NCBI GenBank assembly: GCA_018650465.1
Contig: JABIFY010000113.1
Location: 1-39,303 of the forward strand
Direction: 5' to 3'
Source: Alphaproteobacteria bacterium
Lineage (GTDB): Bacteria > Pseudomonadota > Alphaproteobacteria > UBA2966
DNA length: 39,303 nt
The notes below the pieces were generated by a model. The model did not search any database. It had not been told where the DNA came from and saw nothing but the letters and a program-made list of their open reading frames with translations. Below, in pieces: positions 2,575-33,500 of the stretch (positions are counted from its first letter, which is position 1; every line of letters begins with the position of its first letter). The position numbers were made by a program, and so were the translations under genes.

Positions 2575-2580
2575 ACCTTA

Positions 2581-2670
2581 TATTTGATTCACCAAGCCAG
2601 CCCACTCCCCCTCCCAACCACCCAGTGCGATTATCCTGTGGATGGTTGGGAGGGGGAGTGGCCTGGCCGG
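2581..2670. repeat. Dispersed palindromic repeat, family 1, complete copy
   Basis: Two perfect 19-bp arms, CCACTCCCCCTCCCAACCA at 2602-2620 and its exact complement at 2643-2661, flank a 22-bp loop. With one mismatch the pairing extends to 2596-2620 and 2643-2667. The left half matches the complement of positions 1-60. It lies between two co-directional genes and would form a very stable RNA hairpin, so it may end transcription or protect the 3' end. It also excludes the upstream ATG at 2642 as start of the next gene. Confidence 0.85.
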
Positions 2671-2689
2671 GCACCAGGAACCTGATAAC

Positions 2690-10364: not shown

Positions 10365-11765
10365 TCAGCTTTCCCCACACATTATCGCCGCCGCCCGGCC
10401 TGCCATGCGGCCAAGCGTGACGGCGGTCAGCAGGCCATTGCCGGAAAGATAACCCCAGTCCGACGGACCTGATACGCCGCGGGCAGCGCCGCCACCGGCA
10501 TATAGATTGTGTAAGGGGCTGCCGTCTTGACGCAGGACCTGGGCCTGGTCATTGACCTTTAATCCGCCTTGCGTGTGGAACAGAGAGCCCGTGACCCGCA
10601 CCGCATACCAGGGCGCTTGCAGGGCTGGATTGCCGGTGAAGTCGCGGCCAAATTCATCCACACCCTCACCCGCTGCCAGGGCAGCCGTCTCCGCCATAGT
10701 GGCACGCAAATTGTCTTCCGGCAGGCCTGTAATTTCGATCAATTCATCAATCGTTGCTGCCTTGCGAACGGCATCTGATTTGATGGCCAGGCGGAAATCT
10801 TCAAAATCCAGGCCGCCGTCATAAATGCGCTGATCAAAGATATTCCAGGCGATACTTTCCGGTTGGCCTGCGACAATCCGGCCTTGTTCGGAATAGCCCA
10901 GATGTTCATTGGAAAAGCGCTTGCCGGTCACATTGACCTGAAAACCACCCTGCATCATCAGGGCCCAACTGATTAAAATACCATGGGGGTGAGCAACCGA
11001 ACCATGGCCCTGGAAGGAGCCAAGGTCCGCCATAGCTGCGCCCAAAGCTTCGCCCCAGGTAATGGCGTCACCCTGATTGCCGGTATGACCAAAATAGTTG
11101 GCATCGCTCATTTCCGGAATCAGTTGGGCGATCATTTCCGCATTGCCACCAAAGCCATTGCAGGCGAGGATCAAGGCCTCGCAGCCGATCCGTTCTTCCG
11201 TGCCATCTGGTCGAACCAGGCGCACACCGGCAATGCGGCCCACCTCATCGGCGTAAAGATCAACCACTTGTGCTTCGGTCAGGATATCAATGCCTGCATT
11301 TTCAGCCGCCCGACTGAAGCTGCCGATTAAATCAGCGCCAGTGCGTGAGACCGGTGCATGCATGCGTAACTGGCTGTGATTGGGATACAAAAAGCCCTCA
11401 ACCAGGGTCAGTTCGATATTGTGGTCATCAACCAACCAGTCGATGGCCGGGCCAGATTCAGCGGCGATGGCGCGAACCATGGCTTCATCGGTTTCGCCGT
11501 GGGCCTTGGACAGTATATCTGCGGTCATAATGTCGACGGTATCGCCAACCCCCAAAGCCGCCTGAATTTTTGTTTCGCACGCCGGAATCATGCCCGATGA
11601 CAGGGCGGTCGATCCTTGCGGCACGGCATCCCGTTCCAACACCAACACACCCACATTGGCGTCGGCCACAGTCAGAGCGGCGGTTAACCCACAGGCCCCT
11701 GCCCCGATAATCAGAACCGGAACTGTGACTTCAAACGATTGTTCATTGAGGGGCAGAACCGCCAT
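10365..11765 (-). CDS. FAD-dependent oxidoreductase (fumarate reductase/ketosteroid dehydrogenase type)
   Basis: A 466-aa flavoprotein of the FAD_binding_2 family. The Rossmann motif is VLIIGAGACGLTAA (residues 18-31), followed by ERDAVPQGSTALSSGMI. The C-terminal LHNLYAGGGAARGVSG and GYLSGNGLLTAVTLGR segments close the FAD site. Family members reduce or introduce C=C bonds next to a carbonyl or carboxylate. It is the last gene of the seven-gene operon and starts three bases after the isochorismatase-like gene. In that context it may desaturate an intermediate or reduce a substituted maleate/fumarate; no direct evidence identifies the substrate. No signal peptide or haem-binding CXXCH is seen, so it is probably cytosolic. 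Confidence 0.85.
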   Translation of the reverse strand: MAVLPLNEQSFEVTVPVLIIGAGACGLTAALTVADANVGVLVLERDAVPQGSTALSSGMIPACETKIQAALGVGDTVDIMTADILSKAHGETDEAMVRAIAAESGPAIDWLVDDHNIELTLVEGFLYPNHSQLRMHAPVSRTGADLIGSFSRAAENAGIDILTEAQVVDLYADEVGRIAGVRLVRPDGTEERIGCEALILACNGFGGNAEMIAQLIPEMSDANYFGHTGNQGDAITWGEALGAAMADLGSFQGHGSVAHPHGILISWALMMQGGFQVNVTGKRFSNEHLGYSEQGRIVAGQPESIAWNIFDQRIYDGGLDFEDFRLAIKSDAVRKAATIDELIEITGLPEDNLRATMAETAALAAGEGVDEFGRDFTGNPALQAPWYAVRVTGSLFHTQGGLKVNDQAQVLRQDGSPLHNLYAGGGAARGVSGPSDWGYLSGNGLLTAVTLGRMAGRAAAIMCGES

Positions 11766-11768
11766 GGA

Positions 11769-12374
11769 TCAAGCTTTAAAAGCCGCCGCGACGTCTGCGC
11801 AGGAGGCAATGGTCGCAATAGTCGACAATGACCCGATGGTGTCCTTGTGGGCGGCATCATTAAAGGCCGCACAGCCATCCTCCAGCACCACACAATGGAA
11901 GTCCCGTACATGGGCATCGCGCACGGTTGAGGCCACGCCACCATTTGTGACAATGCCGCCAAAGATCAATGTATCAAGCCCAGCCTTGCGCAGGCCCCAT
12001 TCCAGTCGACTGTTGAAAAAAGCAGAGAAGGCAACTTTTTCAATGGTTAAATCAGCGGGCTGCAATTCATCGATTAAAGCCTGGCCCCAGCTGCCGGGCT
12101 TAAAATCGCCCTTCTTCAGAAAGGGCCGCAGCTTCTTCAGATGATCGGAAATATAAGGTTCGCCACCCTTCATGGGCACCATAGTGAAATGTGTCGAAAC
12201 AATCCACGCCCCGGCAGCCCGTGCCGCGTCCGCCACAGCCGCATGGCGTGGGATCAAGTCAGAAATGGCAGACGCCGTCTGGCCTTCGCGACCATAAGCG
12301 CCTTCCTTGTGCAAAAAATCATTTTGCATATCGCAGATCACAAAGCCAATGGTCGCGGGATCAAATTTCAGCAT
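11769..12374 (-). CDS. Isochorismatase-fold hydrolase lacking the usual catalytic Cys
   Basis: A 201-aa protein of the cysteine-hydrolase/isochorismatase superfamily. Members with a Cys nucleophile hydrolyse amides and carbamoyl groups (nicotinamidase, N-carbamoylsarcosine amidase, maleamate amidase). D15 in ICDMQNDF and K113 in IEKVAFSAFF fit the catalytic Asp and Lys. The nucleophile motif reads TNGGVASTVRDA, so the position normally held by Cys is Gly146. True isochorismatases such as EntB and PhzD also lack that Cys. The enzyme may thus use a different mechanism or have a different job. It lies three bases after hyuA, a pairing known from hydantoin and creatinine routes. Confidence 0.88.
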   Translation of the reverse strand: MLKFDPATIGFVICDMQNDFLHKEGAYGREGQTASAISDLIPRHAAVADAARAAGAWIVSTHFTMVPMKGGEPYISDHLKKLRPFLKKGDFKPGSWGQALIDELQPADLTIEKVAFSAFFNSRLEWGLRKAGLDTLIFGGIVTNGGVASTVRDAHVRDFHCVVLEDGCAAFNDAAHKDTIGSLSTIATIASCADVAAAFKA

Positions 12375-12377
12375 AGC

Positions 12378-14465
12378 TTAAGCCTCCGGCTTGCGGCTAA
12401 TGACAATGTTGCCAAAGTCATCCACCAACCCGGTCAGATCGGGTTCAATAAAAATTGTTGTGTCTGGCTGTTCCAAAAGCGCTGGCCCCGGAATTATTGT
12501 CCCCACGGGCAAGGGCAGGCGCTCGTAGATATTGGCCTCATGCCAGGCACCATCCACCCAGACCTGGCGGGTGCCGAGGTGTGATGATTCCAGGCTGGCG
12601 TCTCCCTTGGGTGCCAGCAGCGACAGATCAAATTTGGGGCGACGGCCAATGACAGACACACGCAAGTTCAAGACCCGAATGGCGATGCCGTCCAGGGGTC
12701 GACCATAGACCTGGCGATAACGGGCCTCAAATGCCTCACGAATGTCCTCTTCGCTAACGCCGGTGGCACCGCCTTCATAGATAATCGGCAAAGCCACATC
12801 GACCGTATGGGTCTGGCCCATATAGGACATGTCCAGTTCAAACACCGTATCAATGCCGCCAAAGCTGACCCCCGCTTCCTCCAGAAGGTTCAGCCCCTTG
12901 CCCGCAAGGCCCGTCATTTGAGAATCAAGCTGGGTCACATTCAGATCCCCCAACACGCCGTTGAGGGTTTGGACAAAATCGTGCCGCATATCGGCAATGG
13001 TACAGCCCAGGGCACTTGTCACACCAGGAAAGCGCGGCACCAGGGCATTTTTCAGGCCGACGTCTTTCATCAAGGCGCCGGCGTGCAAGGCACCGCCACC
13101 ACCGAAAGGCATACCGGCAAATTCATTGGGATTGTGGCCGCGTTCGATGGAGACCAAACGGATCGCCCCGGCCATTTTGGAATTGGCCACACGAATAACC
13201 GCTTCAGCCGCTTGCATGACATCCAGGTCCAGAGGCTCGCCCACATGGACCATAATGGCTTTTTTGGCGGCCTCAACATCCAGGCGGTCCAGCTTGCCGC
13301 CAATGGGCCGGTCGGCGTTAATGCGTCCCAGCACAACATTGGCGTCTGTAACCGTCGGCCGGTCATTGCCCTGGCCATAACAAACAGGGCCGGGATTTGA
13401 GCCTGCCGATTCAGGTCCGATCTGAAGCAATCCACCACGATCCACCCAGGCGATGGAGCCACCGCCGGCACCGATCGTGGTAATCTCGATCATCGGTGTG
13501 CGCACGACCATACCAAAGTCGATATTGGTCTGGGCCGACAAGGCACTTTGACCTTCCGCCACCAGCGAGACATCAAAACTGGTGCCGCCCATGTCACAAG
13601 TGATGACATTCGGAAAACCGGCAGCCACAGCGATATGAGCGCTGGCGATGACACCGGCAGCCGGGCCCGACAAAGCTGTCCGGATGGGCAGGCGTCGGGC
13701 GGTATCAACTGACATAACGCCGCCATTGGATTGCACGATCAGAACCTGACCTTCGAAACCATCATCCCCCAAAGCCGTTTCCAGGCGATGCAAATAATTG
13801 CCAATGGGTGGTTGCAGATAGGCATTCAGGGTTGCGGTTGAGGTGCGCTCGAACTCACGGATTTCCGGCAGGATTTCTGATGAGGTGACAATATGATCGT
13901 TGGGCCAGACCTCACGCACCGCAGCAAGGGCGGCATTTTCGTTGTCGGCGTTGGCATAGGAATTAATGAAAACGATACAGACAGATTCAGCACCCAACTC
14001 CAACAACTGATTTGCCGCGGCCTTGACCTCATCGGCGTCAACAGCTTCGTGGATGGTGCCGTCGGCCAGGGTGCGTTCGCCTACTTCCAGGCGACGGTCA
14101 CGTGGCACCACGGGTTCAAACTGTCCCCACAGGCCCCAGGTTTGTGGCCGGTCGCGGCGACGCATCTCAAGGGCATCACGAAAGCCTTTGGTGGTGATGA
14201 TACCGGTGACGGCCCCTTTGCGTTCCAACAGGGCATTGGTGCCGACCGTCGTGCCATGCACCACTGTGGCCAGTTCAGAAAAGTCGTCGACCTTTTTGCG
14301 GATGCCTTCGATAAAACCGACGGACTGATCTGGTCGCGTTGAAGGCACTTTGGCCACATCACATTCGCCGGTGGCTTCATCAAGGAAAAAGACATCCGTG
14401 AAAGTTCCGCCCACATCGACGCCAACAATATATTTTTTGGCGGCTTTATCTGATGACGTACTCAT
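12378..14465 (-). CDS. hyuA: Hydantoinase/5-oxoprolinase subunit A
   Basis: ATP-binding subunit of the hydantoinase/oxoprolinase family, 695 aa, full length. The N-terminal VGVDVGGTFTDVF (residues about 14-26) is the phosphate-binding motif of the actin-like ATPase fold. VVHGTTVGTNALLERKGA and TCDMGGTSFDVSLV are further family signatures. With HyuB it would open a cyclic amide (hydantoin, 5-oxoproline or a related lactam or imide) using ATP. The related acetone carboxylase family uses the same fold. The ATG overlaps the hyuB stop by 4 bp. Context with a lyase, a hydratase pair and an isochorismatase-fold protein points to catabolism rather than glutathione recycling. Confidence 0.92.
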   Translation of the reverse strand: MSTSSDKAAKKYIVGVDVGGTFTDVFFLDEATGECDVAKVPSTRPDQSVGFIEGIRKKVDDFSELATVVHGTTVGTNALLERKGAVTGIITTKGFRDALEMRRRDRPQTWGLWGQFEPVVPRDRRLEVGERTLADGTIHEAVDADEVKAAANQLLELGAESVCIVFINSYANADNENAALAAVREVWPNDHIVTSSEILPEIREFERTSTATLNAYLQPPIGNYLHRLETALGDDGFEGQVLIVQSNGGVMSVDTARRLPIRTALSGPAAGVIASAHIAVAAGFPNVITCDMGGTSFDVSLVAEGQSALSAQTNIDFGMVVRTPMIEITTIGAGGGSIAWVDRGGLLQIGPESAGSNPGPVCYGQGNDRPTVTDANVVLGRINADRPIGGKLDRLDVEAAKKAIMVHVGEPLDLDVMQAAEAVIRVANSKMAGAIRLVSIERGHNPNEFAGMPFGGGGALHAGALMKDVGLKNALVPRFPGVTSALGCTIADMRHDFVQTLNGVLGDLNVTQLDSQMTGLAGKGLNLLEEAGVSFGGIDTVFELDMSYMGQTHTVDVALPIIYEGGATGVSEEDIREAFEARYRQVYGRPLDGIAIRVLNLRVSVIGRRPKFDLSLLAPKGDASLESSHLGTRQVWVDGAWHEANIYERLPLPVGTIIPGPALLEQPDTTIFIEPDLTGLVDDFGNIVISRKPEA

Positions 14466-16192
14466 TGTGCTGCGCCCTGACGAAGTTGTTCTGTTTTGGG
14501 TGTGTTGACGCTGCCATCATCGTTCAGGGCAACAGCATAATCGCGGGCCGCCCCGTCGCGGCTGACATAGCCAAGCTGAAAATCACGGGCCACGGCAAGT
14601 GGGTCGCGCTGCAAGGCCTGGCCATAACCACCCCCGCCGGGTGTTTCCAGATGCACGTGCTGACCCTTTTTGATCTTGATGCCAACCATTTTTGACGCCA
14701 TGGGCGGTACTTTGTAACCGTCATCCTGTTCGTAGGTAAACTTGTTCAGGGCACCACTGCCGCCGCCAACAACGCCCGGTGGGGCATAACGTCCACGTTC
14801 GCCAAACAAAAAGACATCGGCGTTTTCTTCCAGCAATTCAATTTCATAAATGGCACCCAAACCACCGCGATTTTTGCCCGGGCCACCGCTGTCCGGACGC
14901 AGGGCCCATTGGGTAAAGAACATGGGGTAGGCTGATTCCAGAATTTCGATGGGGGGAATGGTCGCCGTCGAGATTGGCGCGTTGCCGTGGTTCAGACCAT
15001 CGCCTTCCGGGTGACCCCCGTGGCCACCGCCGAAGAAGCTGAACATCACCCAGCGACGGCCATCGACCCGGTGCCCGGCCAGGGACAGGGCGTTGATGGT
15101 GCCATAGGCGCAACCATTGCTGCGCTCAGGTGCGGCCTGGGCCACGGCGCCGAAGACAACATCGATGATGCGTAAAATGGTTTCCGTATAACCGCCCACG
15201 GGCTTGGGTGCTTTCACGGCCAACATGGTATTTTCCGGGATAATAATATCGATGGGTTCGAGCACGCCGGAATTGGCGGGAACTTCCGTAAAGACATGTT
15301 TGATGGCCACATAAACCGAGGCCACAGCCGTCGAGAGCGCAATATTCACCGGCCCGGCACAGGCATCCGAGGTGCGCGAAAAATCGAGCGTCATGTGATC
15401 GCCCTGAATGGTCAGATCGAGCGCGATTTTCAACGGCTCATCAACAATACCGTCATTGTCCAGCCAGTCATCACAGGTATAAGTCCCGTCAGGCAATTCG
15501 GAAATGTTGGACCGCATCAACTGCGCTGCCCGTGATTTCAGCTCGCCCAGGGCTTCGGTCACGGTATCCGCGCCATATTCATCCAGCAAAGCGGTCAGGC
15601 GGCGAATCCCCAGGTCCAGGGCATTGATCTGGCCATTAAAATCGCCATAAAGGCTGATGGGCTGGCGGGAATTGGCTTGCAGGATATCCACAATATCCTG
15701 GCGGAATTCGCCTTTTACATAGACCTTGACCGGGGGGATCAACATGCCTTCCTGGAAGCTTTCCGTGGCTTCCGGGTTGTAGTTCCCCGGCACATTGCCG
15801 CCCACATCATGCCAGTGACCCACCGAGGCCAGATAACAATATAGCTTGCCATCACGATAATAGGGTCGCACCAGTTTGAAGTCCGACAGGTGGGTGCCGC
15901 CATCGTAGGGGTCGTTAAAAATATAGATGTCGCCGTCGGCCAGATCGCCATCTTTTGCGGCCTTTTCGATCACGGCTTTGACAGCAAAGGCCATGGCCCC
16001 GACGAAGATCGGCAGGCCCGATTTGCCCTGCACCAGGGTTTCGCCCGTGACCGCATCGTAAAGGCCGTGAGAGGCATCGTGGGCTTCGGCGATGATGGGA
16101 TTAAAGGCACTGCGGAACAGGGTCGCGTCCATTTCATCGGCAATTTGTTCCAGGCGACCTTTCAGAACCGCAAGGGTGACAAGATCAATCAT
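14462..16192 (-). CDS. hyuB: Hydantoinase/5-oxoprolinase subunit B
   Basis: Partner subunit of HyuA, 576 aa, normal length for HyuB. It opens with LVTLAVLKGRLEQIADEMDATLFRSA (split here as LKGRLEQIADEMD and ATLFRSAFNP), the family start. YIFNDPYDGGTHLSDFKLVRP and the Gly-rich end HLETPGGGGYGQA are also typical. Its start overlaps the upstream lyase-gene stop by 4 bp and its stop overlaps hyuA by 4 bp, so the three are translationally coupled. N-methylhydantoinase and 5-oxoprolinase are the known activities. No racemase or carbamoylase typical of hydantoin operons is next to it. Confidence 0.92.
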   Translation of the reverse strand: MIDLVTLAVLKGRLEQIADEMDATLFRSAFNPIIAEAHDASHGLYDAVTGETLVQGKSGLPIFVGAMAFAVKAVIEKAAKDGDLADGDIYIFNDPYDGGTHLSDFKLVRPYYRDGKLYCYLASVGHWHDVGGNVPGNYNPEATESFQEGMLIPPVKVYVKGEFRQDIVDILQANSRQPISLYGDFNGQINALDLGIRRLTALLDEYGADTVTEALGELKSRAAQLMRSNISELPDGTYTCDDWLDNDGIVDEPLKIALDLTIQGDHMTLDFSRTSDACAGPVNIALSTAVASVYVAIKHVFTEVPANSGVLEPIDIIIPENTMLAVKAPKPVGGYTETILRIIDVVFGAVAQAAPERSNGCAYGTINALSLAGHRVDGRRWVMFSFFGGGHGGHPEGDGLNHGNAPISTATIPPIEILESAYPMFFTQWALRPDSGGPGKNRGGLGAIYEIELLEENADVFLFGERGRYAPPGVVGGGSGALNKFTYEQDDGYKVPPMASKMVGIKIKKGQHVHLETPGGGGYGQALQRDPLAVARDFQLGYVSRDGAARDYAVALNDDGSVNTPKTEQLRQGAAQ

Positions 16193-17076
16193 TTTGAACC
16201 CTCATAATTCTTGGCGTCGTATTTTTCACCGTCCTGCAAAAGCTGATCTGTGCCCAGCAAATCATTCAGCTGGGTAATATCCAGCATGCGATCTTTAAAA
16301 GGATCGTTCCAGCCTGCGGATTTCAGGCTGGCAAAATAGTCCTGTTCCATGCGTGCCCTGGCGCGCACCAGACCACCTGGAAAGATCACCAATTTGTAGC
16401 CCAGCGCCTGCAAAGATGCAGCGTCATGCATGGGCGTCAGACCACCTTCAACCATGTTGGCCAACAAAGGTACTTTACCCTTGAAGTGTTTGGTCAGAAT
16501 TTTCATCTGATCGTCATCTTGCGGGGCTTCGATAAACAGAACATCGGCCCCGGCTTCGACAAAAAGTTCAGCCCGGTCCATGGCGGCAGAAAAACCTTCT
16601 ACGGCGATGGCGTCGGTGCGGGCGATGATCAGGGTTTCTTCGCTGAGGCGGGCATCCGTGGCCGCATGGATTTTGCCGACGACTTCCGCAGGCGGCACAA
16701 GAGTTTTGCCCTTCAGGTGACCGCAACGTTTGGGCATGGCCTGGTCTTCGATCTGCAAGGCGTTGGCCCCACAGCGTTCAAACAGGCGCACTGTGCGCTG
16801 CACATTCAAGGCATTGCCAAAGCCCGTATCGGCATCGACGATCAGGGGCAGGTCCAGGCGTTCGCGAATGGTGGAAACGGTTTCGGCCACCTCGTTCATG
16901 CTGACCAGACCAATATCAGGGCGACCAAACCGGCTGTAGGCAATGCTGGCGCCGGAAAGATAGGCGGAATGAAATCCGGCCCTCTCGGCGCTGGCGGCAC
17001 TGAAGGCATCATAAATACCAGGGGCGACGACGATGTCGTCTCCGGCCAGTTGTTGGGAAAGGGTTGGGTGGGTCAT
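16189..17076 (-). CDS. Isocitrate lyase/PEP mutase superfamily C-C lyase
   Basis: A 295-aa TIM-barrel enzyme. IVDADTGFGNALNV (residues 79-92) holds the metal ligands D81 and D83, and QIEDQAMPKRCGH contains E110, D111 and the acid/base C118. The KRCGH motif marks true lyases (2-methylisocitrate lyase, 2,3-dimethylmalate lyase) as opposed to phosphonate mutases, which lack that Cys. It should split a 2-hydroxy dicarboxylate or tricarboxylate into pyruvate or another 2-oxo acid and an acid. It directly follows an aconitase-family large/small subunit pair of the short type. That is the same pairing as DmdAB and Dml in nicotinate fermentation by Eubacterium barkeri, which gives the best functional hint. 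Confidence 0.88.
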   Translation of the reverse strand: MTHPTLSQQLAGDDIVVAPGIYDAFSAASAERAGFHSAYLSGASIAYSRFGRPDIGLVSMNEVAETVSTIRERLDLPLIVDADTGFGNALNVQRTVRLFERCGANALQIEDQAMPKRCGHLKGKTLVPPAEVVGKIHAATDARLSEETLIIARTDAIAVEGFSAAMDRAELFVEAGADVLFIEAPQDDDQMKILTKHFKGKVPLLANMVEGGLTPMHDAASLQALGYKLVIFPGGLVRARARMEQDYFASLKSAGWNDPFKDRMLDITQLNDLLGTDQLLQDGEKYDAKNYEGSK

Positions 17077-17077
17077 A

Positions 17078-17590
17078 TTATTTTACCTGTTGAGCAGCTA
17101 ATTTCCGCTCCAGCGATGGCACCAGGCCACCGGCAGCGATCATATCCAGAAGATGCGGCGGCACAGGATCACAACCCCATGTCTCACCGGTGGTCAGATT
17201 TGTGACTTTGCCGACCTCGCCATCGACCATCAGGCGGTCTTCGGGCGAAGCGGTTATGTCCGCCTGCGAGGTCACAGCCAGCAGGCCAAAATTCAGGGCG
17301 TTGCGATAAAAAATACCGCCATAGGATTTGGCGACCACAGCCTTGATGCCCAATATGGTGAGGGCCTGGGCTGCCTGTTCACGGGACGAGCCAATACCAA
17401 AGTTAGCCCCTGCCAAAACGATGTCGCCGGGGCGCACGCCAGGGGCAAAGGCCGGGTCCACGGTTTCCAGACAGTGGCTGGCCATTTCTTCCATGGAACC
17501 CTTCATATAGATGCCAGGGGCCAGCACATCCGTATCGACTTCATCGCCAAACAACCAGGCGCGACCACCTTCTTTTACTGGTTCAGTCAT
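17078..17590 (-). CDS. Aconitase-family small (swivel) subunit, LeuD/HacB/DmdB type
   Basis: A 170-aa swivel-domain subunit. GANFGIGSSREQAAQALTIL (residues 61-80) is the conserved loop, and FYRNALNFGLL follows. The length matches the short archaeal-type HacB/DmdB group better than the roughly 200-aa LeuD of leucine synthesis. The specificity loop after DTDVLAPGIY reads MKGSM, unlike the YLRT and YLVY loops of homoaconitase and isopropylmalate isomerase, so the substrate is likely different. It overlaps the large subunit gene by 4 bp and ends one base before the lyase gene. Confidence 0.88.
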   Translation of the reverse strand: MTEPVKEGGRAWLFGDEVDTDVLAPGIYMKGSMEEMASHCLETVDPAFAPGVRPGDIVLAGANFGIGSSREQAAQALTILGIKAVVAKSYGGIFYRNALNFGLLAVTSQADITASPEDRLMVDGEVGKVTNLTTGETWGCDPVPPHLLDMIAAGGLVPSLERKLAAQQVK

Positions 17591-18867
17591 GCGCCGCCTC
17601 CGTTCAGAAATTCACGGGGGTCGGCGATATGACCGGCCACAGCGGCCGCCGCCACCGTATAGGGTGAGGCCAGATAAACATCTGAATTGCCCGGCCCCAT
17701 GCGGCCCTTGAAGTTGCGTGCCGTCGAGGCGATGCAGACCTCATTTTCCGACAACACACCGGCACCATACCCGGCACAGGCACCACAGCCAGACGGCATC
17801 AGGATGGCTCCGGCGGCTGTCAAAGTGGCAAGCGTACCGTCGGCGGCAGCCTCGGCCGTGGTCCGCGTAGACGCAGGTGCGATCAGCAAACGTACGTTGG
17901 AAGCGACCTTGCGGCCCTTCAAAACACGCGCGGCCATTTTCAGGTCCTCCAGCTTGGCCCCGGTGCAGGCCCCGATATAGGCCTGGTGAACATTTTGACC
18001 CGCATGATTTTCAACGCCTGAAGAATTGGCCGGGCTGTGTGGTGCTGCCACTTGTGGTGATAAGGTATTGGCATTGAATTCGTGTACGGCCCGGTAGGCG
18101 GCGTCGGCATCGCCCTGCCACTTTTCGATGTCGCCGGGATTGCCACCAGCCGCCGTGACATAATCTGCCGTCTTCTGGTCCGCCGCAATGATACCGGTTT
18201 GCGCCCCCAGTTCCGCTGCCATGTTGCACAAGGTCAAACGTTCCTGCATGGACAAGCCAGAGATCGTCTCGCCGGCATATTCAATGACCTGATAGTCGCC
18301 GCCACCCATGCCCATCTTTGCACAAGCCGCCAGCATCATATCCTTGGCAGAAACGCCATTTGATAGATTTCCCGACCAGAGGATCTGGATCGTGGACGGC
18401 ACCTTGATCCAGGTCTCGCCCGTGACCAACACACCGGCCATGTCCGTTGCCCCGACGCCAAACATGAAACATCCTACAGCCCCGCCAGAAGGTGAATGAC
18501 TGTCACCACCAACGACAAACATGCCTGGCGAGAGATGGCCATTTTCCTGCAAGACAACATGACATATGCCCTGCATGTCGTGGAAATTATCAACCCCGTT
18601 GGCGGCCACCCACTTGCGTGTGGTATCCAGAATATGGGCACTTTCTGCATCGACCGCAGGCACATAATGGTCAGTTACAACCACGACCCGATCCGTATCC
18701 CAGACTTTAGCACCCAGGCGTTCAAGAATGGGGGCGACCCTTCGCGGTCCACCAGAATCGTGCATCATGGCCAAATCAACACGGCAGGTCACGATCTCGC
18801 CCGCCGTCACAGTTTCCTGACCGGCGGCCTTGGCAATGATTTTCTCAGCCAGCGTTTGCCCGGGCAC
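17587..18867 (-). CDS. Aconitase-family large (4Fe-4S) subunit, LeuC/HacA/DmdA type
   Basis: A 426-aa hydro-lyase large subunit. The three 4Fe-4S ligands are C301 in IGACTGAKLEDL and C361 and C364 in PSGCGACAGYG. GGDSHSPSGGAVG (residues 120-132) replaces the commoner GDSHT. The length fits the short HacA/DmdA group (about 420 aa) and not bacterial LeuC (about 466). It would add water to a cis-unsaturated dicarboxylate such as a substituted maleate. The start is a GTG with GGAG seven bases upstream. It is the first gene of the operon, behind a good sigma70-type promoter. Confidence 0.88.
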   Translation of the reverse strand: MPGQTLAEKIIAKAAGQETVTAGEIVTCRVDLAMMHDSGGPRRVAPILERLGAKVWDTDRVVVVTDHYVPAVDAESAHILDTTRKWVAANGVDNFHDMQGICHVVLQENGHLSPGMFVVGGDSHSPSGGAVGCFMFGVGATDMAGVLVTGETWIKVPSTIQILWSGNLSNGVSAKDMMLAACAKMGMGGGDYQVIEYAGETISGLSMQERLTLCNMAAELGAQTGIIAADQKTADYVTAAGGNPGDIEKWQGDADAAYRAVHEFNANTLSPQVAAPHSPANSSGVENHAGQNVHQAYIGACTGAKLEDLKMAARVLKGRKVASNVRLLIAPASTRTTAEAAADGTLATLTAAGAILMPSGCGACAGYGAGVLSENEVCIASTARNFKGRMGPGNSDVYLASPYTVAAAAVAGHIADPREFLNGGGA

Positions 18868-27824: not shown

Positions 27825-28388
27825 TCAGGTCACAACCCAGCCCTCTGGCGGTGCGCCTTTGCCCGGATGCACGGTACCACAGTGTGGGCATTTTCGGGCG
27901 GCTTCATCGGCATGAAAAGCCTCATAGATCACGGGCAACTGGCTAACGATACCACTGGCTGAAGTCAGGGCCGCTTCGACCCGATGGACCAGGCCTTCGC
28001 AGTTGAAGCAATACCATTCAAACGCTTCTTTCATACCGAACATGCGGGGACTTTCCACAACCAGGCCGATGGAGCCGACCTCGGGTCGTTGTGGTGCATG
28101 GCGGGTATGGGAGGGCAGGAAAAAGACTTCACCTTCGCGGATCGGCACATCGTATATCTTACCGCCGTCAGCGATTTTCAGCACCATGTTGCCACGATAC
28201 TGAAAGAACCACTCCTCCACTGGATCGTCATGAAAATCGACCCGCGTGTTGGGGCCGCCGACAACCATCACAATCATACCGGTCTCTTCATGCAGCATCT
28301 TGTTGCCCACAGGGGGCTTCAGCAGATGCTGGTTTTCATCAATCCATTTTTCAAAATTGAAGGCTTTTAATGTCGGATGCGTGCTCAT
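27825..28388 (-). CDS. nbaC: 3-hydroxyanthranilate 3,4-dioxygenase
   Basis: Cupin extradiol dioxygenase that cleaves 3-hydroxyanthranilate to 2-amino-3-carboxymuconate semialdehyde with Fe(II) and O2. The protein is 187 aa, typical of the bacterial form. Fe ligands H53, E59 and H97 lie in VDFHDDPVEEWFFQY and PSHTRHAPQRP. R49, R101 and E112 match the substrate and acid-base positions. The C-terminal rubredoxin-like site has C127, C130, C167 and C170 in CFNC and CPHC. It is the last gene of the dehalogenase-homologue operon, 18 bases after the DapA-like gene. No kynureninase or semialdehyde decarboxylase is adjacent, so a modified substrate is possible. Confidence 0.92.
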   Translation of the reverse strand: MSTHPTLKAFNFEKWIDENQHLLKPPVGNKMLHEETGMIVMVVGGPNTRVDFHDDPVEEWFFQYRGNMVLKIADGGKIYDVPIREGEVFFLPSHTRHAPQRPEVGSIGLVVESPRMFGMKEAFEWYCFNCEGLVHRVEAALTSASGIVSQLPVIYEAFHADEAARKCPHCGTVHPGKGAPPEGWVVT

Positions 28389-28406
28389 GATACCCCTCCG
28401 GTTAGA

Positions 28407-29378
28407 TTATTCAGCGGCGGCAGAATTTGTGCCCAGACCGCAGGCTTCAAAGGCTGCCCTGGTCGCGGCCTTTTCCTGCTCCGTCAATTCCAGCATGGGC
28501 TGGCGCACGCGCCCGCCGACCTGGCCCAACAATTCCTGCCAGTATTTTTGATGCGACTGGGGCTTGCCACCGGGTCGCGTTGACTTCAGAGCCTGCCGAA
28601 CCGGTTCCAGGCTGCGCCAGATTTCCTTTGCCTTGTCGACCTCACCGGCAAAGGCGGCTTGAGTATAATCATGCATGCGACGGTCGTTCGCCGTCTGCAG
28701 CAAATAAGGCGGTGACGAGCAAAGATACAACTGCCAGCCAAGATCAAGAATATTGTCCAGCCACTCTTCTTCCGAGGCCGTGCTTACCAGCAATTTATCA
28801 CTGGCCCGCGCCGTCAGGTCGGCGTACATGTCGCGTGGTACGCTGTATTTGATGGCCACAACGTTGGGCAAGTCCGCCAGTTCGGTGCACAACTCAGGGC
28901 TCATCAGATAGCCACTGTCGGGATGACTCCACAGGGCAATGCCAATATCCACAGAATCTGAAATATGTTTGTAATATTGCCGCAACAATTCATCCTGGTC
29001 AGAAGCGAAATGCAGGATCGGCGCATGCACGACAATATAATCAGCGCCGATATTCTGCGCGTGGTGTGCAAGGTCCAATACGACATCCATGTTCTGGTCC
29101 GAACAAGACATGATCGTCGCACCTGCATCAGCAGTTTCCTCGACGGCGATGTCAAAAGTCCGCTTGCGCTCTGCAACACTCATGGAAAAGAACTCGCCCT
29201 GCTTGCCGGAAATAAACAGACCCTCAATGCCGAGATCACCAACCCAGTGTCGGATGTTGGAACGGAACCCCTCTTCGTCGATGCTCAAGTCGTCGCGGAA
29301 TGGCGTCAGGCCGGCGGCCCAGATGCCGCGCATATGTTCACGGGCATAATCCTTGGCCTCACTTTTTGAATATTTCAT
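28407..29378 (-). CDS. DapA-family aldolase/dehydratase, atypical active site
   Basis: A 323-aa TIM-barrel protein of the dihydrodipicolinate synthase/N-acetylneuraminate lyase family. The Schiff-base lysine is K177 in NVVAIKYSVPRD. The 2-oxo-acid carboxylate loop, normally GTTGE, reads GKQGEF (58-63). The usual catalytic tyrosine in TPYY is replaced, since the strand reads VVHAPILHF. Such changes occur in hydratase-aldolases and in family members of unknown role. The gene overlaps the molybdenum hydroxylase gene by 4 bp. A retro-aldol step after ring cleavage is plausible in this operon but not shown. Confidence 0.85.
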   Translation of the reverse strand: MKYSKSEAKDYAREHMRGIWAAGLTPFRDDLSIDEEGFRSNIRHWVGDLGIEGLFISGKQGEFFSMSVAERKRTFDIAVEETADAGATIMSCSDQNMDVVLDLAHHAQNIGADYIVVHAPILHFASDQDELLRQYYKHISDSVDIGIALWSHPDSGYLMSPELCTELADLPNVVAIKYSVPRDMYADLTARASDKLLVSTASEEEWLDNILDLGWQLYLCSSPPYLLQTANDRRMHDYTQAAFAGEVDKAKEIWRSLEPVRQALKSTRPGGKPQSHQKYWQELLGQVGGRVRQPMLELTEQEKAATRAAFEACGLGTNSAAAE

Positions 29379-31534
29379 ATCGTCTTTCCTTCCTTCGCAG
29401 CCTTAATCGCTTGCCAAACCGTTTCACTGGTGGCTGGCATATCAACATGTTCAACCCCCTGGGCTGCCAGGGCATCCAGTATGGCATTCATAATCGCCGC
29501 TGGTGCCCCGATGGTGCCCGCTTCGCCAACACCCTTGGCTCCCAACAGGTTTACCGGTGACGGGGTGCAAAGCTGGTTGATGGTGATCCTGGGGATATCA
29601 CTTGCCCGTGGTAAAGCGTAGTCCATCAGGGAGCCTGTCAACAACTGTCCCTCGTCGTCAAAGACGATTTTTTCCATCAAAGCTTCGCCCAACCCTTGAG
29701 CAATACCGCCAAGGATTTGGCCCTTGACCAGCATCGGATTGATAATCGTTCCCGCATCATCGACCCAGTCGAGTTTTTCGACGCTGACCTCACCGGTCTC
29801 ATCGCAAATTGAAACAACAGCAAGACAGCCACCATAACTCCAGGCTTCACCTTCAGCCTCATAACGGACGTCTGCTTCAAAGCTTGTCTGTTCCGGGTTA
29901 TCGATGCGTTGCTGCTTGACCTGGCGGGCGGCCAGCAACAAGGCGCTGCCACCAATGGCCGTGCTGCGACTGGCCAACGCGCCGATCCCCGACGTCACCT
30001 TGTCCGTATCCCCGTGAAAAACCCGAACATCCCATGGATTGACGTTCAGTTCATCGGCCACAATTTGCCGGACGGCGGTTTCCCGCCCCTGACCCTGGGC
30101 ACTGGACCCTGTTGCGGCTTCGACAGTTCCGTCTTCCCGAATTCTGACGCGGGCTGTTTCCCATCCCTGTCCGCAGGGTTCGATATACAGGGCGATACCA
30201 ATGCCGACCAGGTCACCGACGGCCCTTCGTCGTTCCTGACTTTTTCGTAAATCCTGATATTCGGCCAGCTCGGTCAGCTTTTCTAATGCGGCTGGATAAT
30301 CGCCTGAATCAAGACAAATGCCGGTTGCGCGGGAACAGGGCAACTGGTCACGGTTCAAGAGATTTGTTTGGCGAATTTCCACTGGATCCATATGCAGTTC
30401 ACGGGCGGCCTTATCCATCAGGCGTTCCATCAGCATGGCCGCTTCTGGCCGACCCGCGCCGCGATAGATATTCACGGCAGAGGTCCGACTGAGGGAGGCA
30501 GACATCTCGATCTGAACAGCGTCACAGCCATAGGGACCAGGCAGGATACGGGCGGCATTCCAGGCTGGGACAGCCGCACTGAACGGCAACCAGTGCCCCA
30601 ACTGCCCCTCGATCTGTGCCTTCAGACCCAGTAATTTTCCGCCCTTCGAAAAGGCTGCCTGACCTTCACATTTGGTGCCGCGGCCATGACTTTGTGCCAG
30701 AAAATCCTCGCTGCGATCCGCCACCCACTTTATTGATTTACCCAGTTTATCCGCTGCCCAGGCAACAAACACTTCCTCCGGGTGCAACGAAGCCTTGGCC
30801 CCGAAAGCGCCGCCAACATCCGGCGTGATCACTCGTACCCGGTGTTTTTCCTTGCCCAACAAGTCCGCCAGATCAGCGCGGGATCGATAAGGCGTTTGTG
30901 TGGACAACCAAACCGTCAGACGACCTTCGCCTGGCTTGCCTGGCTGGGCCACCACAGTCCGTGGTTCCAGCGCCACAGCATTCAGGCGGGGATGATCAAT
31001 CTGCACTGAAACCACTGTTGCATCGGCAAAGGCTGCCGCCACATCCCCATCCCGCCAGCTTTGGGCAAAGGCCTGGTTGTCCGGGCAATCCGCAAACAAG
31101 GTTTCGGGGTTTTCAATGTCGTCATAGTCAACAAAGATATTTTCGACCGCATCCTGGGCTAGCTGTCGGGAGCTGGCCACCACCGCAGCCACGGGCTGGC
31201 CAACGGCAAAAACCTGATCTTGGGCAAGGCAAAAAACCGGCGGGGCAAAAATACCGTCAATGATCGGATTTACCGGCAAATCAGCAATGCCCGCCGTGTC
31301 TGCCCCGGTAAAGACCGCCACAACGCCGGACCCTTTTGCAGCATCCGTATCAATTGCCAGCCGACCTGACGGCACTGGCGATCGTAAAAAAGCAACATGC
31401 AGGCAATCATCCGGTGCCACATCCCCGGTGTAACAACCACCGCCCGTTAACAGCCGGTCATCTTCAACGCGCCTGAGGGATTTGCCGATCCAGGTCTGTG
31501 CCTGATCGTCGATTTGTGGATGGTCGTCTGTCAC
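29375..31534 (-). CDS. Molybdenum hydroxylase large subunit (xanthine dehydrogenase/CoxL family)
   Basis: A 719-aa molybdopterin-binding catalytic subunit, slightly short for the family. It begins with WIGKSLRRVEDDRLLTGGG, then the MoCo-binding TPDVGGAFGAKASLHPEE (238-254) and NIYRGAGRPEA (355-365). The catalytic base is E671 in GAKGVGEAGTIGAP. Family members hydroxylate N-heterocycles, aldehydes or CO. The CO-specific loop AYRCSFR is absent. The 2Fe-2S and FAD subunits (CoxS and CoxM types) that normally accompany it are missing from the operon and the window, so they must be elsewhere or the enzyme works differently. Start is GTG, overlapping a 32-codon frame. Confidence 0.88.
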   Translation of the reverse strand: MTDDHPQIDDQAQTWIGKSLRRVEDDRLLTGGGCYTGDVAPDDCLHVAFLRSPVPSGRLAIDTDAAKGSGVVAVFTGADTAGIADLPVNPIIDGIFAPPVFCLAQDQVFAVGQPVAAVVASSRQLAQDAVENIFVDYDDIENPETLFADCPDNQAFAQSWRDGDVAAAFADATVVSVQIDHPRLNAVALEPRTVVAQPGKPGEGRLTVWLSTQTPYRSRADLADLLGKEKHRVRVITPDVGGAFGAKASLHPEEVFVAWAADKLGKSIKWVADRSEDFLAQSHGRGTKCEGQAAFSKGGKLLGLKAQIEGQLGHWLPFSAAVPAWNAARILPGPYGCDAVQIEMSASLSRTSAVNIYRGAGRPEAAMLMERLMDKAARELHMDPVEIRQTNLLNRDQLPCSRATGICLDSGDYPAALEKLTELAEYQDLRKSQERRRAVGDLVGIGIALYIEPCGQGWETARVRIREDGTVEAATGSSAQGQGRETAVRQIVADELNVNPWDVRVFHGDTDKVTSGIGALASRSTAIGGSALLLAARQVKQQRIDNPEQTSFEADVRYEAEGEAWSYGGCLAVVSICDETGEVSVEKLDWVDDAGTIINPMLVKGQILGGIAQGLGEALMEKIVFDDEGQLLTGSLMDYALPRASDIPRITINQLCTPSPVNLLGAKGVGEAGTIGAPAAIMNAILDALAAQGVEHVDMPATSETVWQAIKAAKEGKTI

Positions 31535-31629
31535 TGAGGATTTTCCCGGATCAAATCAATAACCCCAAGGATATCTCTTTGGACTGGCAGTGCAATGCCC
31601 GGCAACCATTCATTGCTGGCTGCAATCAT
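31531..31629 (-). CDS. Possible 32-aa small protein or leader peptide
   Basis: In the 109-bp gap between the MarR gene and the molybdenum hydroxylase gene an ATG frame encodes 32 residues, opening MIAASNEWLPGIALPVQRD and ending in NPQ. Its TGA overlaps the GTG of the next gene by 4 bp (GTGA), the same coupling used elsewhere here. The ribosome site is poor (GGGG only two bases from the ATG), so it may be chance. No family recognised. Confidence 0.25.
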   Translation of the reverse strand: MIAASNEWLPGIALPVQRDILGVIDLIRENPQ

Positions 31630-31643
31630 TTCCCCGCGATCAC

Positions 31644-32093
31644 TTAACCTGCAATCACCCTGCACAGCAGATCATTGAGCGTACCTTGTTCAACAATTGT
31701 CAGGGGTGAAAGGGTTTTTTCAGCCGCATCTTGTGAATGACCGGCCAAAGTAGCGGCCATCTGTGTTCCGGTTTGGGTCAGAAATACCAGGCGCCTGCGT
31801 TGATCTTCCGGCGATGGCGAGCTGTCCACCAGGCCGCGCTTTTGCAAGCGCTGGATGACGCCATGCACGGTCGCCGGTTTCATGCCGCTTTGGCGTCCCA
31901 GTTCATTTTGTGACACCTGTCCCAGTTCCATCAGCTTGAGGATGGCACCCAACTGTGGCGGTGTCAGGTCCAGATCACCCATGTTGCGGCGCAAGTTGCC
32001 CAGGGCCACAGCCTGAGCCCGGCCCAACAAGTAGCCGATCTGGTCATCCAACCGATAAGCGGGCTCTTCCGCTTTGCGCGCCTGTATACTCAC
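31644..32093 (-). CDS. MarR family transcriptional regulator
   Basis: A 149-aa winged-helix repressor. TPPQLGAILKLMELGQVSQN leads into the recognition helix ELGRQSGMKPATVHGVIQRL, and the wing is SPSPEDQRRRLVFLTQTG (residues about 93-110). MarR proteins release DNA on binding small phenolics or aromatic acids. The gene overlaps the dehalogenase homologue by 4 bp and is inside the operon it most likely controls. A 30-bp palindrome at 33450 over the operon promoter is a strong candidate operator, also close to the divergent M81 gene. Confidence 0.92.
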   Translation of the reverse strand: MSIQARKAEEPAYRLDDQIGYLLGRAQAVALGNLRRNMGDLDLTPPQLGAILKLMELGQVSQNELGRQSGMKPATVHGVIQRLQKRGLVDSSPSPEDQRRRLVFLTQTGTQMAATLAGHSQDAAEKTLSPLTIVEQGTLNDLLCRVIAG

Positions 32094-33427
32094 ACCTCGC
32101 CCGCCTCAACACGGGCCTTGGCGGCATCAGGGCTTTCTGCGGCGGCATAGCGTTTGCGACCTTCGGCCCTGTCCGTTGGATGGGTGCCCATATTATCGGG
32201 TGCGGGCCACATATCTGGTTCGTGTACGGCAAATTTATCTGCACTGGGTTGCTTTTTGTCCAGGTTCAAATCCCGTTCATTGGTTGCCTTCGGATTGACC
32301 ATGTACCCATCCACTGTTTCCAGATCGAACCACCAGCGGTTTTCCGGATTGCGTTCACCGTATTTCAGTTTGTCATCCAGCCAAATCAGAAAGCGCCGGG
32401 TGACAGGCAGTTTGATCGCCATCCACATGGCCAGGCGGTGATGCATCAGGCCCTCTTTGTTCCAGGGGCACATTTTCATGCAGCGACCACAGGCCGAGCC
32501 CTTGGGATTGGTCGTGCGATACTTTGTGCAGCCCTCGGAATCCGGCTTCCAGGTTTCATAGCCGTTATACATAATCTTGTCGCCAAAAGGGATGGCCCCA
32601 CAGGGACATTCACGGGCGCATTTTTTGCACGAATTACAAAAATCCTGCATACCAAAATCGATGGGTTTATCGATTTGCAGGGGCATGTCGGTGGTCACGA
32701 CGACCGTCTTCAGCCGCGGCCCCACAAAAGGATTGACCACCATTTCGCCAATACGGCTCAACTCCCCCAGGCCCGCCAACAGCGACAAAGGTACATGCTG
32801 CACATGGCTGTCGAAATTTGTGTGGGCGCGGGCCGGAAAGCCCAAGCGACGGATATAGTCGGCCACGATATCAGCGATTTCGGCCCCACGCACATATGCC
32901 CGGTAGCTTTGCGCGCCGCTGATCCAGTCATCGCCACTGGCGCTGTCCATAGTCGTAAAACCCTGATCGATAATCATGACAATGGCATGACTGTGATAGG
33001 GCTCGATAACCTTGCCGTGTTTGTCGTGGCTGTACCAGCAATAGTCTTTTGCCTCACAGATGCCGGTCAAATCGGCATCGAGAAAATAGGACAGGGATTT
33101 GATATGTTCCGAGAGCTTTTGCGGATCGTTGCTGATGGGGGCGACCTCAGCTGCAACCTCGCCGTCCTGGGCCTTGATCAGATGTTTGCCCACTTCACTG
33201 AAGGCGGCGGATATGGGGGATTTCTTGATAAACCGTTTGACCTCAGCCGCCGGGCGATCACCAAAGTCACCGTGGGCAGCCCGGAAAAAACCGTTCGCCC
33301 GCATGGGCGAGCGCTGCACTTCGTCATCGATGATCAAGGTCGTTGGCTGATCGACCCGTTTGATCTTGTGCATGGGATACTTGCCCTGATGCATGGGACG
33401 CTTGCGCCTTGAAAAGATTGGCAGCAT
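32090..33427 (-). CDS. Reductive dehalogenase homologue, cytosolic type
   Basis: A 445-aa protein of the RdhA/epoxyqueuosine reductase superfamily, corrinoid and two-4Fe-4S enzymes. The corrinoid domain covers about 100-255, with the typical LLAGLGELSRIGEMVVNPFVG run split across 217-236. The FeS ligands are C264, C267, C270 and C274 in FCNSCKKCARECP and C300 plus C313, C316 and C320 in CGRCMKMCPW. There is no Tat signal, so it is cytosolic, unlike respiratory RdhA. It also lacks the C-terminal flavin/2Fe-2S reductase module fused in the aerobic catabolic type. Activity on a halogenated or methoxylated aromatic is inference. GGGAG nine bases upstream supports the ATG at 33427. Confidence 0.85.
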   Translation of the reverse strand: MLPIFSRRKRPMHQGKYPMHKIKRVDQPTTLIIDDEVQRSPMRANGFFRAAHGDFGDRPAAEVKRFIKKSPISAAFSEVGKHLIKAQDGEVAAEVAPISNDPQKLSEHIKSLSYFLDADLTGICEAKDYCWYSHDKHGKVIEPYHSHAIVMIIDQGFTTMDSASGDDWISGAQSYRAYVRGAEIADIVADYIRRLGFPARAHTNFDSHVQHVPLSLLAGLGELSRIGEMVVNPFVGPRLKTVVVTTDMPLQIDKPIDFGMQDFCNSCKKCARECPCGAIPFGDKIMYNGYETWKPDSEGCTKYRTTNPKGSACGRCMKMCPWNKEGLMHHRLAMWMAIKLPVTRRFLIWLDDKLKYGERNPENRWWFDLETVDGYMVNPKATNERDLNLDKKQPSADKFAVHEPDMWPAPDNMGTHPTDRAEGRKRYAAAESPDAAKARVEAGEV

Positions 33428-33449
33428 GGCTCGGGTCTCCCGGATTTAT

Positions 33450-33500
33450 CATTATAACTATAACGTTATTATTATAATGAATATTTTTGAGAAGAGTCAA
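33450..33500 (-). promoter_or_regulatory. Operon promoter overlapped by a 30-bp palindrome (MarR operator)
   Basis: On the minus strand TTGACT (33495-33500) and a perfect TATAAT (33471-33476) are 18 bp apart, and the start point would be near 33464. A palindrome from 33450 to 33479, with outer arms CATTATAA and TTATAATG and centre ATAACGTTAT, matches its own complement at 26 of 30 positions. It covers the -10 box and start point. The operon encodes a MarR protein, so this is its likely binding site. Confidence 0.8.

Follow-up and report, generated by a model that had tools for sequence, protein, structure and literature searches.

The subject of this report is a group of five genes that lie on the minus strand in the order rdhA-marR-MoL-dapA-HAO (33427-27825), in a stretch of alphaproteobacterial DNA, hereafter the window, that is the whole of contig C151 (39,303 bp). 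The draft genome it comes from, G000, measures 4.8 Mb and is 98.9% complete. The first gene encodes a reductive dehalogenase (RdhA) and the second a MarR-family regulator; the last three, for the large subunit of a molybdenum-hydroxylase-family enzyme (MoL), a lyase of the DapA superfamily and a 3-hydroxyanthranilate 3,4-dioxygenase (HAO), belong to what we call the cassette. The features are collected in Table 1.

Table 1. Features of the rdhA-HAO region, with the matches on which each assignment is based
Feature	Position	Strand	Basis
rdhA promoter and inverted repeat, proposed MarR operator	33450..33500	-	predicted from sequence match
RdhA, single-domain NpRdhA-like reductive dehalogenase, 445 aa	32090..33427	-	TIGR02486, PDB 4ras/6zxu, fold match, residues
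MarR-family regulator, 149 aa	31644..32093	-	PF12802/PF01047
MoL, molybdenum-hydroxylase-family large subunit, 719 aa, proposed aldehyde oxidoreductase	29375..31534	-	PF02738, PF20256, PF01315
DapA-superfamily lyase, 323 aa, proposed hydratase-aldolase	28407..29378	-	PF00701
HAO, 3-hydroxyanthranilate 3,4-dioxygenase, 187 aa	27825..28388	-	TIGR03037, NF009763

An earlier note on this DNA had described the five genes as running in one direction with 4-bp overlaps at two of the junctions, and the coordinates and family searches confirm this: RdhA/MarR and MoL/DapA each overlap by 4 bp, with a 109-bp gap between MarR and MoL and an 18-bp gap between DapA and HAO. A sequence scan reported neither a promoter-like nor a terminator-like site in the 109-bp gap, and a weak promoter-like match (9/12) lies directly ahead of HAO (minus strand, 28435-28406). 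We infer from this layout that the five genes would be co-transcribed. Against the second species of the genus, the ratios of nonsynonymous to synonymous substitution (dN/dS), which are rough because dS is near saturation, are 0.025 for RdhA (the lowest among the eight genes with a value), 0.031 for HAO, 0.050 for DapA and 0.127 for MoL; MarR gave no value.

Upstream of rdhA, TTGACT-18-TATAAT (33500-33471) matches the promoter consensus at 11/12 positions; promoter-like matches across the region number four, no more than in shuffled sequences (mean 3.8). Two facing half-sites (33450-33479) span the -10 box of rdhA and have no further match in the window, and 0/100 shuffles held two of them, the pattern itself having been derived from one of the two sites. 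Similar AT-rich dyads precede rdhA in three other loci that combine RdhA with MarR (L025, L028 and that of G003, a second genome of the same genus), in a comparison that covered RdhA-MarR loci only. A MarR at 50-76% identity also comes after RdhA in L024, L025 and L028. Control of the operon by MarR, which the earlier note had assumed, is plausible on the basis of the inverted repeat over the -10 box: MarR may repress the operon through this candidate operator, and its ligand would lift repression at the rdhA promoter.

A single-domain reductive dehalogenase and its relatives

The window RdhA scores 187.2 bits against TIGR02486 (cut-off 160.35) and is not listed by the Pfam Dehalogenase model at E 0.001. 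The closest match with a solved structure is NpRdhA from Nitratireductor pacificus (PDB 4ras/6zxu, E 1e-176), with a long match to NpRdhA residues 251-695 and a weaker second match of query residues 78-256 to the vestigial domain (52-222). This vestigial N-terminal copy of the core is missing in the window RdhA and in 19 relatives that are 57-94% identical to it, and the single-domain proteins measure 443-463 amino acids, except for the longer open reading frame called for L025. In the tree, the rows nearest to the window RdhA are those of G003 and of a Sneathiellales bin (support 98/89). The window RdhA is a single-domain variant that stands beside the NpRdhA-type catabolic RdhAs and is not a member of that type.

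The AlphaFold model of RdhA (mean pLDDT 74, pTM 0.82) superposes on NpRdhA with a Z score of 42.6 and 2.5 A over 424 residues, compared with Z 21.6-24.4 for respiratory RdhAs and Z 13.4-13.8 for epoxyqueuosine reductases. The accessible part of PMC10463259 lists six residues of NpRdhA (F291, S422, M423, Y426, K488 and R552); equivalents of all but M423 are retained in the window protein, as they are in 37 of the 46 aligned RdhA-like rows, and the five-residue set is not kept in the other nine, which include 7 of the 8 other RdhA-like loci examined in G000. The position of M423 is Tyr in the window RdhA and Tyr or Phe in all 20 single-domain rows. Both 4Fe-4S Cys motifs are present, at 264 and 313, and inspection found no Tat signal, the SRRKRP near the N-terminus having no hydrophobic stretch after it. 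According to the same part of PMC10463259, every catabolic RdhA that has been characterised to date has ortho-halogenated phenols as substrates. The TIGR02486 score, the residues and the fold match support a genuine cytosolic-type reductive dehalogenase core with the ortho-halophenol residue set, in agreement with the cytosolic homologue recognised in the earlier note; the corrinoid-site features, whose loss on structural modelling that note had named as speaking against its interpretation, are present.

We compared 36 named RdhA loci, several of them too short to display neighbours. A comparison of neighbourhoods had been suggested by the earlier note; RdhA stands with the cassette in the window and in G003, while in L025 and L028 RdhA and MarR occur without it. 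Single-domain RdhAs also adjoin ring-cleavage genes elsewhere: L029, L030 and L036 share the order HpaB-LigA-LigB-RdhA, with a 4-bp overlap of RdhA and LigB. In these loci, which come from Kordiimonadaceae/Emcibacteraceae-type bins, an IclR-type regulator, HpaB, LigA, LigB, RdhA and an MFS gene stand in a row, a candidate for another operon of dehalogenation and ring cleavage. Across the class, 44 of 385 genomes match RdhA at 1e-20 and 24 lie above the cut-off, with at most five candidates scored per genome. G000 holds nine RdhA-like genes (on C151, C92, C154, C6, C122, C68, C52, C88 and C150), four of which pass the TIGR02486 cut-off; equivalents of K488 and R552 are lacking in 7 of the 8 that lie outside the window.

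Some of these relatives have neighbours of their own to be recorded. On C122 of G000 (L009, 6710-12674), a double-domain RdhA that retains the five ortho-halophenol residues adjoins an indolepyruvate:ferredoxin-oxidoreductase-like (IOR) pair in the order iorA-iorB-rdhA, all in one direction, and this pair is a possible low-potential electron source. In L007 and L010 (both G000), L026, L027, L028 and L049, RdhA-like genes likewise have IOR-type genes no more than about 5-6 kb away; counted by locus, such neighbours occur in 3 of the 8 other RdhA-like loci examined in G000 (L009 included) and in 4 of the 36 named loci. An RdhA-like gene on C6 of G000 (L008, 5697-7957) adjoins a divergent DapA-superfamily gene whose product is 24% identical to the window DapA over the matched part. 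L006 (8127-10156) and L015 (4080-6109) carry near-identical pairs of Fe-S proteins of 324 and 352 amino acids beside ligase-like genes, with a weak TIGR02486 match. Four RdhA genes of the NpRdhA-like group (394-410 amino acids, the five ortho-halophenol residues kept) are found in L053, L055 and L057, from the Desulfatiglandales bin SG_15_bin78, a sulfate-reducer-type bin.

The cassette across Alphaproteobacteria

HAO exceeds the cut-offs of both TIGR03037 (218 bits, cut-off 146) and NF009763 (242 bits, cut-off 220), and in the alignment with 1yfu it retains the metal and substrate residues R49, H53, E59, H97, R101 and E112 together with both CxxC pairs. The DapA-like protein falls below every NCBIfam equivalog cut-off, that of the DapA equivalog included (79.6 bits, cut-off 206). 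Its Schiff-base Lys177 and Trp150 are invariant in 35/35 cassette homologues, and so is a GKQxE loop at the position where GTTGE is the usual loop of the DHDPS/NAL superfamily. By these scores it is a member of the superfamily only and not a 4-hydroxy-tetrahydrodipicolinate synthase. MoL has glyceraldehyde dehydrogenase alpha as its best NCBIfam match, below cut-off, and its motifs YRGAGR, GGAFG and GEAG are intact. Against TIGR02416 it scores 409 bits (cut-off 991), with YRGAGR in place of the CO dehydrogenase loop; judged in this way, it is not the large subunit of an aerobic CO dehydrogenase. We considered decay of MoL in view of its dN/dS, yet its motifs are whole. Of the 18 loci with a cassette MoL, one (L143) has a FAD subunit in the same gene group. 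Searches of G000 with PF03450, a model that can miss some FAD subunits, found no orphan among them; the six PF03450 loci each adjoin their own large subunit, and the L143 subunit, which matches PF00941 only, was not listed by PF03450.

Within the order, 2 of 15 genomes, each of them a member of this genus, have HAO (E up to 1e-20) and DapA (1e-60), while in a class sample of 385 genomes HAO occurs in 35 (1e-30) and DapA in 23 (1e-45), often adjoining. Gene content was determined by tblastn at 35 DapA loci, namely that of the window, those of 21 further genomes from the class sample and those on 13 of 47 plasmid records, with G115 (34% identity) left out and with G003 and L024 (isolate SI054_bin61), which are the same contig, counted once. 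HAO is present in the same stretch in 28 of these loci, aspartate dehydrogenase in 20 and kynureninase, annotated as kynU in some regions, in seven; several loci, L204 and L206 among them, run into the edge of their contig. In 18 of the 35, MoL is the gene directly ahead of DapA; 14 have an aldehyde dehydrogenase (ALDH, with 60% identity or more to the L144 enzyme), and no locus has both. The loci include close kin (Ensifer, Shinella and 'Roseateles'; Phaeobacter and Tritonibacter; G368, G198 and G291), so that the 18/14/0 split does not represent 32 independent events. Among the named carriers are Shinella, Ensifer, Tritonibacter scottomollicae, Phaeobacter LSS9, Sinorhizobium mexicanum, Rhizobium bangladeshense, Agrobacterium pusense, Chelatococcus and Paroceanicella. 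Roseobacter plasmids commonly carry relatives of the cassette.

In a 39-row tree of HAO, a single change accounts for the 23 DapA-linked rows, a value as low as this being reached in 0/500 shuffles, although the branch that divides linked from unlinked rows is weak (30/79); the window HAO lies within an 11-row DapA-linked clade with support 100/98. Five genomes counted as unlinked (G021, G079, G198, G291 and G368) carry DapA on another contig, and in G079 HAO adjoins MoL. In G000, aspartate dehydrogenase is encoded on C131 and a kynureninase above the family cut-off on C34. Neither ACMSD nor 2-aminomuconate deaminase is listed in any of 11 annotated cassette regions, whose annotation is incomplete, the genomes themselves not having been searched. 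Two class-V PLP enzymes of the window (1438-3919) were considered as kynureninases and set aside: the first reaches only 33 bits (family cut-off 246) and the second is not listed for the family. Elsewhere on the minus strand of the window (10365-18867), a FAD oxidoreductase, an isochorismatase-type hydrolase, HyuA, HyuB, a PEP-mutase/isocitrate-lyase-type protein and two aconitase-family parts form a gene group that resembles another catabolic operon.

A proposed pathway and its competitors

We tentatively propose, giving it somewhat less than an even chance, that the five genes form a catabolic operon in which a B12-dependent RdhA feeds a cassette for the degradation of 3-hydroxyanthranilate (3-HAA). 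The core substrate of the cassette is likely to be 3-HAA, because kynureninase lies in the same gene group in some of the loci. The earlier note had reasoned from the absence of kynurenine genes that the dioxygenase probably serves a different substrate, an argument weakened by the kynureninase genes in 7 of the 35 related loci and on another contig of G000. HAO would open 3-HAA to 2-amino-3-carboxymuconate semialdehyde. Because MoL and ALDH replace each other and never occur together, we take them to do the same job, the oxidation of an aldehyde, and because of this exchange MoL is placed after ring cleavage, where it probably acts as an aldehyde oxidoreductase; it would oxidise the aldehyde produced by HAO, the job of ALDH in other bacteria. 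The same exchange makes it improbable that the hydroxylase prepares the substrate before cleavage, as the earlier note had it. The DapA-like enzyme would hydrate and split 2-amino-3-carboxymuconate via a Schiff base, yielding iminosuccinate (or oxaloacetate) and malonate semialdehyde, and the earlier note's sequence of a dioxygenase that opens the ring and an aldolase that then splits the chain fits these steps. Iminosuccinate is the substrate of aspartate dehydrogenase; this enzyme, whose gene is on another contig here and within the cassette in many others, would reduce it to aspartate. The chain from HAO through MoL or ALDH and DapA to aspartate dehydrogenase is our inference from chemistry and gene content.

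The position of rdhA before the HAO set suggests that a halogen is stripped from 3-HAA ahead of ring cleavage. RdhA would take a halogen ortho to a phenolic OH, and as C4 is the one such position of 3-HAA that is unoccupied, we favour 4-halo-3-HAA as its substrate; RdhA would convert this compound, formed from 6-halotryptophan via the kynurenine pathway, to 3-HAA, with electrons from a ferredoxin-type system. The halogenated anthranilates named in the earlier note are thus retained, but sharpened to 4-halo-3-HAA. In the sea, 6-bromo-indoles are common. A more specific version, which we hold to be on the doubtful side, makes RdhA a guard enzyme that dehalogenates 4-halo-3-HAA from marine 6-halotryptophans or 6-haloindoles and so spares HAO from inactivation, its product entering a so far undescribed decarboxylase-free route to aspartate and malonate semialdehyde. 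To judge from the titles of Parli 1980 and Colabroy 2005, as given in PMC10721613 and PMC7910607, 4-chloro-3-hydroxyanthranilate inactivates HAO and the 4-halogen arises from 6-halotryptophan; RdhA would thereby also clear a reported inactivator of HAO. That RdhA and the cassette act together is put forward as a testable hypothesis and not as a result.

A number of observations weigh against this proposal. RdhA accompanies the cassette in only 2 of the 35 loci, the window and G003, which belong to one genus, and RdhA with MarR exists apart from it in L025 and L028. Gene order between the two genomes of the genus is conserved far beyond the operon, and the shared arrangement is therefore no special sign of a linkage between RdhA and the cassette. 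The window does not encode the electron donor system of RdhA, and no RdhA acting on an aminophenol is reported in the literature surveyed. The LysR, TRAP and aspartate dehydrogenase genes of the cassette are not in the window operon (LysR adjoins HAO in G003 and is absent here), no FAD or FeS subunit lies beside MoL, and the dN/dS of MoL exceeds that of every other gene for which a value was obtained. Three of the 35 loci have neither MoL nor ALDH (L146, L204 and L149, the last scored so with a different MoL, at 37%, about 6 kb off), three MoL loci have a different ALDH nearby (27-33% identity), and 7 of the 20 cassette genomes searched are without a kynureninase above cut-off.

Among the competing explanations, we think it rather unlikely that rdhA and marR are chance neighbours of an independent 3-HAA cassette, with RdhA acting on an unrelated ortho-halophenol (a bromophenol or a halogenated hydroxybenzoate) and no substrate in common. 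The cassette-free rdhA-marR units of L025 and L028, the 33 of 35 cassette loci without RdhA and the 109-bp gap that parts marR from MoL speak for chance neighbours, as does the debromination of 2,6-dibromophenol by a marine Roseobacter RdhA, described in the available part of PMC13101508; however, the genes share one strand across a gap in which no promoter-like or terminator-like site was reported, the arrangement is kept in both species despite synonymous sites near saturation, and a chemically fitting substrate exists. We regard as quite improbable the view that HAO works in NAD synthesis, leading from kynurenine through 3-HAA to quinolinate, and stands in for the NadA route while DapA and MoL belong to a different pathway. 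In its favour, G000 has a kynureninase, and NadA (PF02445) was found neither in G000 nor overall in 22 of the 26 genomes searched, 17 of the 20 cassette genomes among them, which counts against our proposal as well. Yet five family members without HAO are also without NadA, so that its absence is not tied to HAO; G342, G350 and G112 have NadA together with cassette genes; DapA, ALDH or MoL and the transporters have no place in NAD synthesis; and the seven cassette genomes without a kynureninase above cut-off do not suit this view either.

About as improbable, or slightly more so, is the idea of the earlier note that the cassette opens another ortho-aminophenol or an acid derived from an N-heterocycle, MoL being a genuine ring hydroxylase that acts ahead of HAO. 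Quinoline 2-oxidoreductase and other hydroxylases of N-heterocycles do belong to the MoL family, and in many cassette loci the neighbourhood is free of kynureninase, but ALDH, which excludes MoL and is excluded by it throughout the 35 loci, cannot hydroxylate a ring, kynU adjoins in seven loci, and the best NCBIfam match of MoL, though below cut-off, is an aldehyde-oxidising enzyme. Homarine (N-methylpicolinate), whose degradation by all or part of the cassette was our initial reading, lost weight after kynU and the MoL/ALDH exchange appeared, and we now consider it very improbable. A conserved bacterial homarine pathway published in 2026 is known here only as a citation in PMC13390433, and the consulted part of PMC12817926 describes rapid uptake of homarine by Ruegeria pomeroyi, roseobacter plasmids being common carriers of cassette relatives; against this, PMC13390433, as far as it was available, ties homarine to N-methylglutamate dehydrogenase, an enzyme that does not appear in the feature lists of the 11 incompletely annotated cassette regions, and kynU with HAO fits 3-HAA better.

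Significance and comparison with known systems

If the proposed operon is real, a cytosolic B12 dehalogenase would have a defined natural job in tryptophan-type catabolism, and the use of halogenated tryptophans would be explained even though a breakdown product poisons the ring-opening enzyme. A limited literature search turned up no report that combines a dehalogenase with halotryptophan and kynurenine, and for a decarboxylase-free 3-HAA pathway the sources it reached, available in part, yielded only vitamin work on trypanosomatids. Apart from RdhA, the comparison points to an ACMSD-independent 3-HAA pathway in rhizobia, roseobacters and others, which cultured carriers (Phaeobacter, Ensifer and Tritonibacter) make testable.

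Each part of the locus resembles a known system and departs from it. RdhA shares with NpRdhA (PDB 4RAS, 6ZXU, 6ZY1) a catalytic core that is about 50% identical, the fold, the five residues and both 4Fe-4S motifs, whereas it has 445 residues instead of about 700, is without the vestigial N-terminal copy and has Tyr for M423. HAO agrees with the bacterial enzyme of the NbaC type (PDB 1YFU) in family score and aligned residues, and differs in belonging to a clade of genes that lie beside a DapA-type lyase. That lyase has the Schiff-base lysine and the barrel family of the DHDPS/NAL superfamily (DapA, NanA, KdgD), but Trp150 where DapA and NanA have Tyr, the GKQxE loop, and scores below all equivalog cut-offs. 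MoL has the domains and active-site motifs of the CoxL-like molybdenum hydroxylases, although with YRGAGR and no adjoining FAD or FeS subunit. Finally, the catabolism of kynurenine and 3-HAA through ACMSD is a known route that has kynureninase and HAO in common with the cassette; where that route relies on ACMSD and a deaminase, the cassette instead has ALDH or MoL together with a DapA-type lyase and aspartate dehydrogenase.

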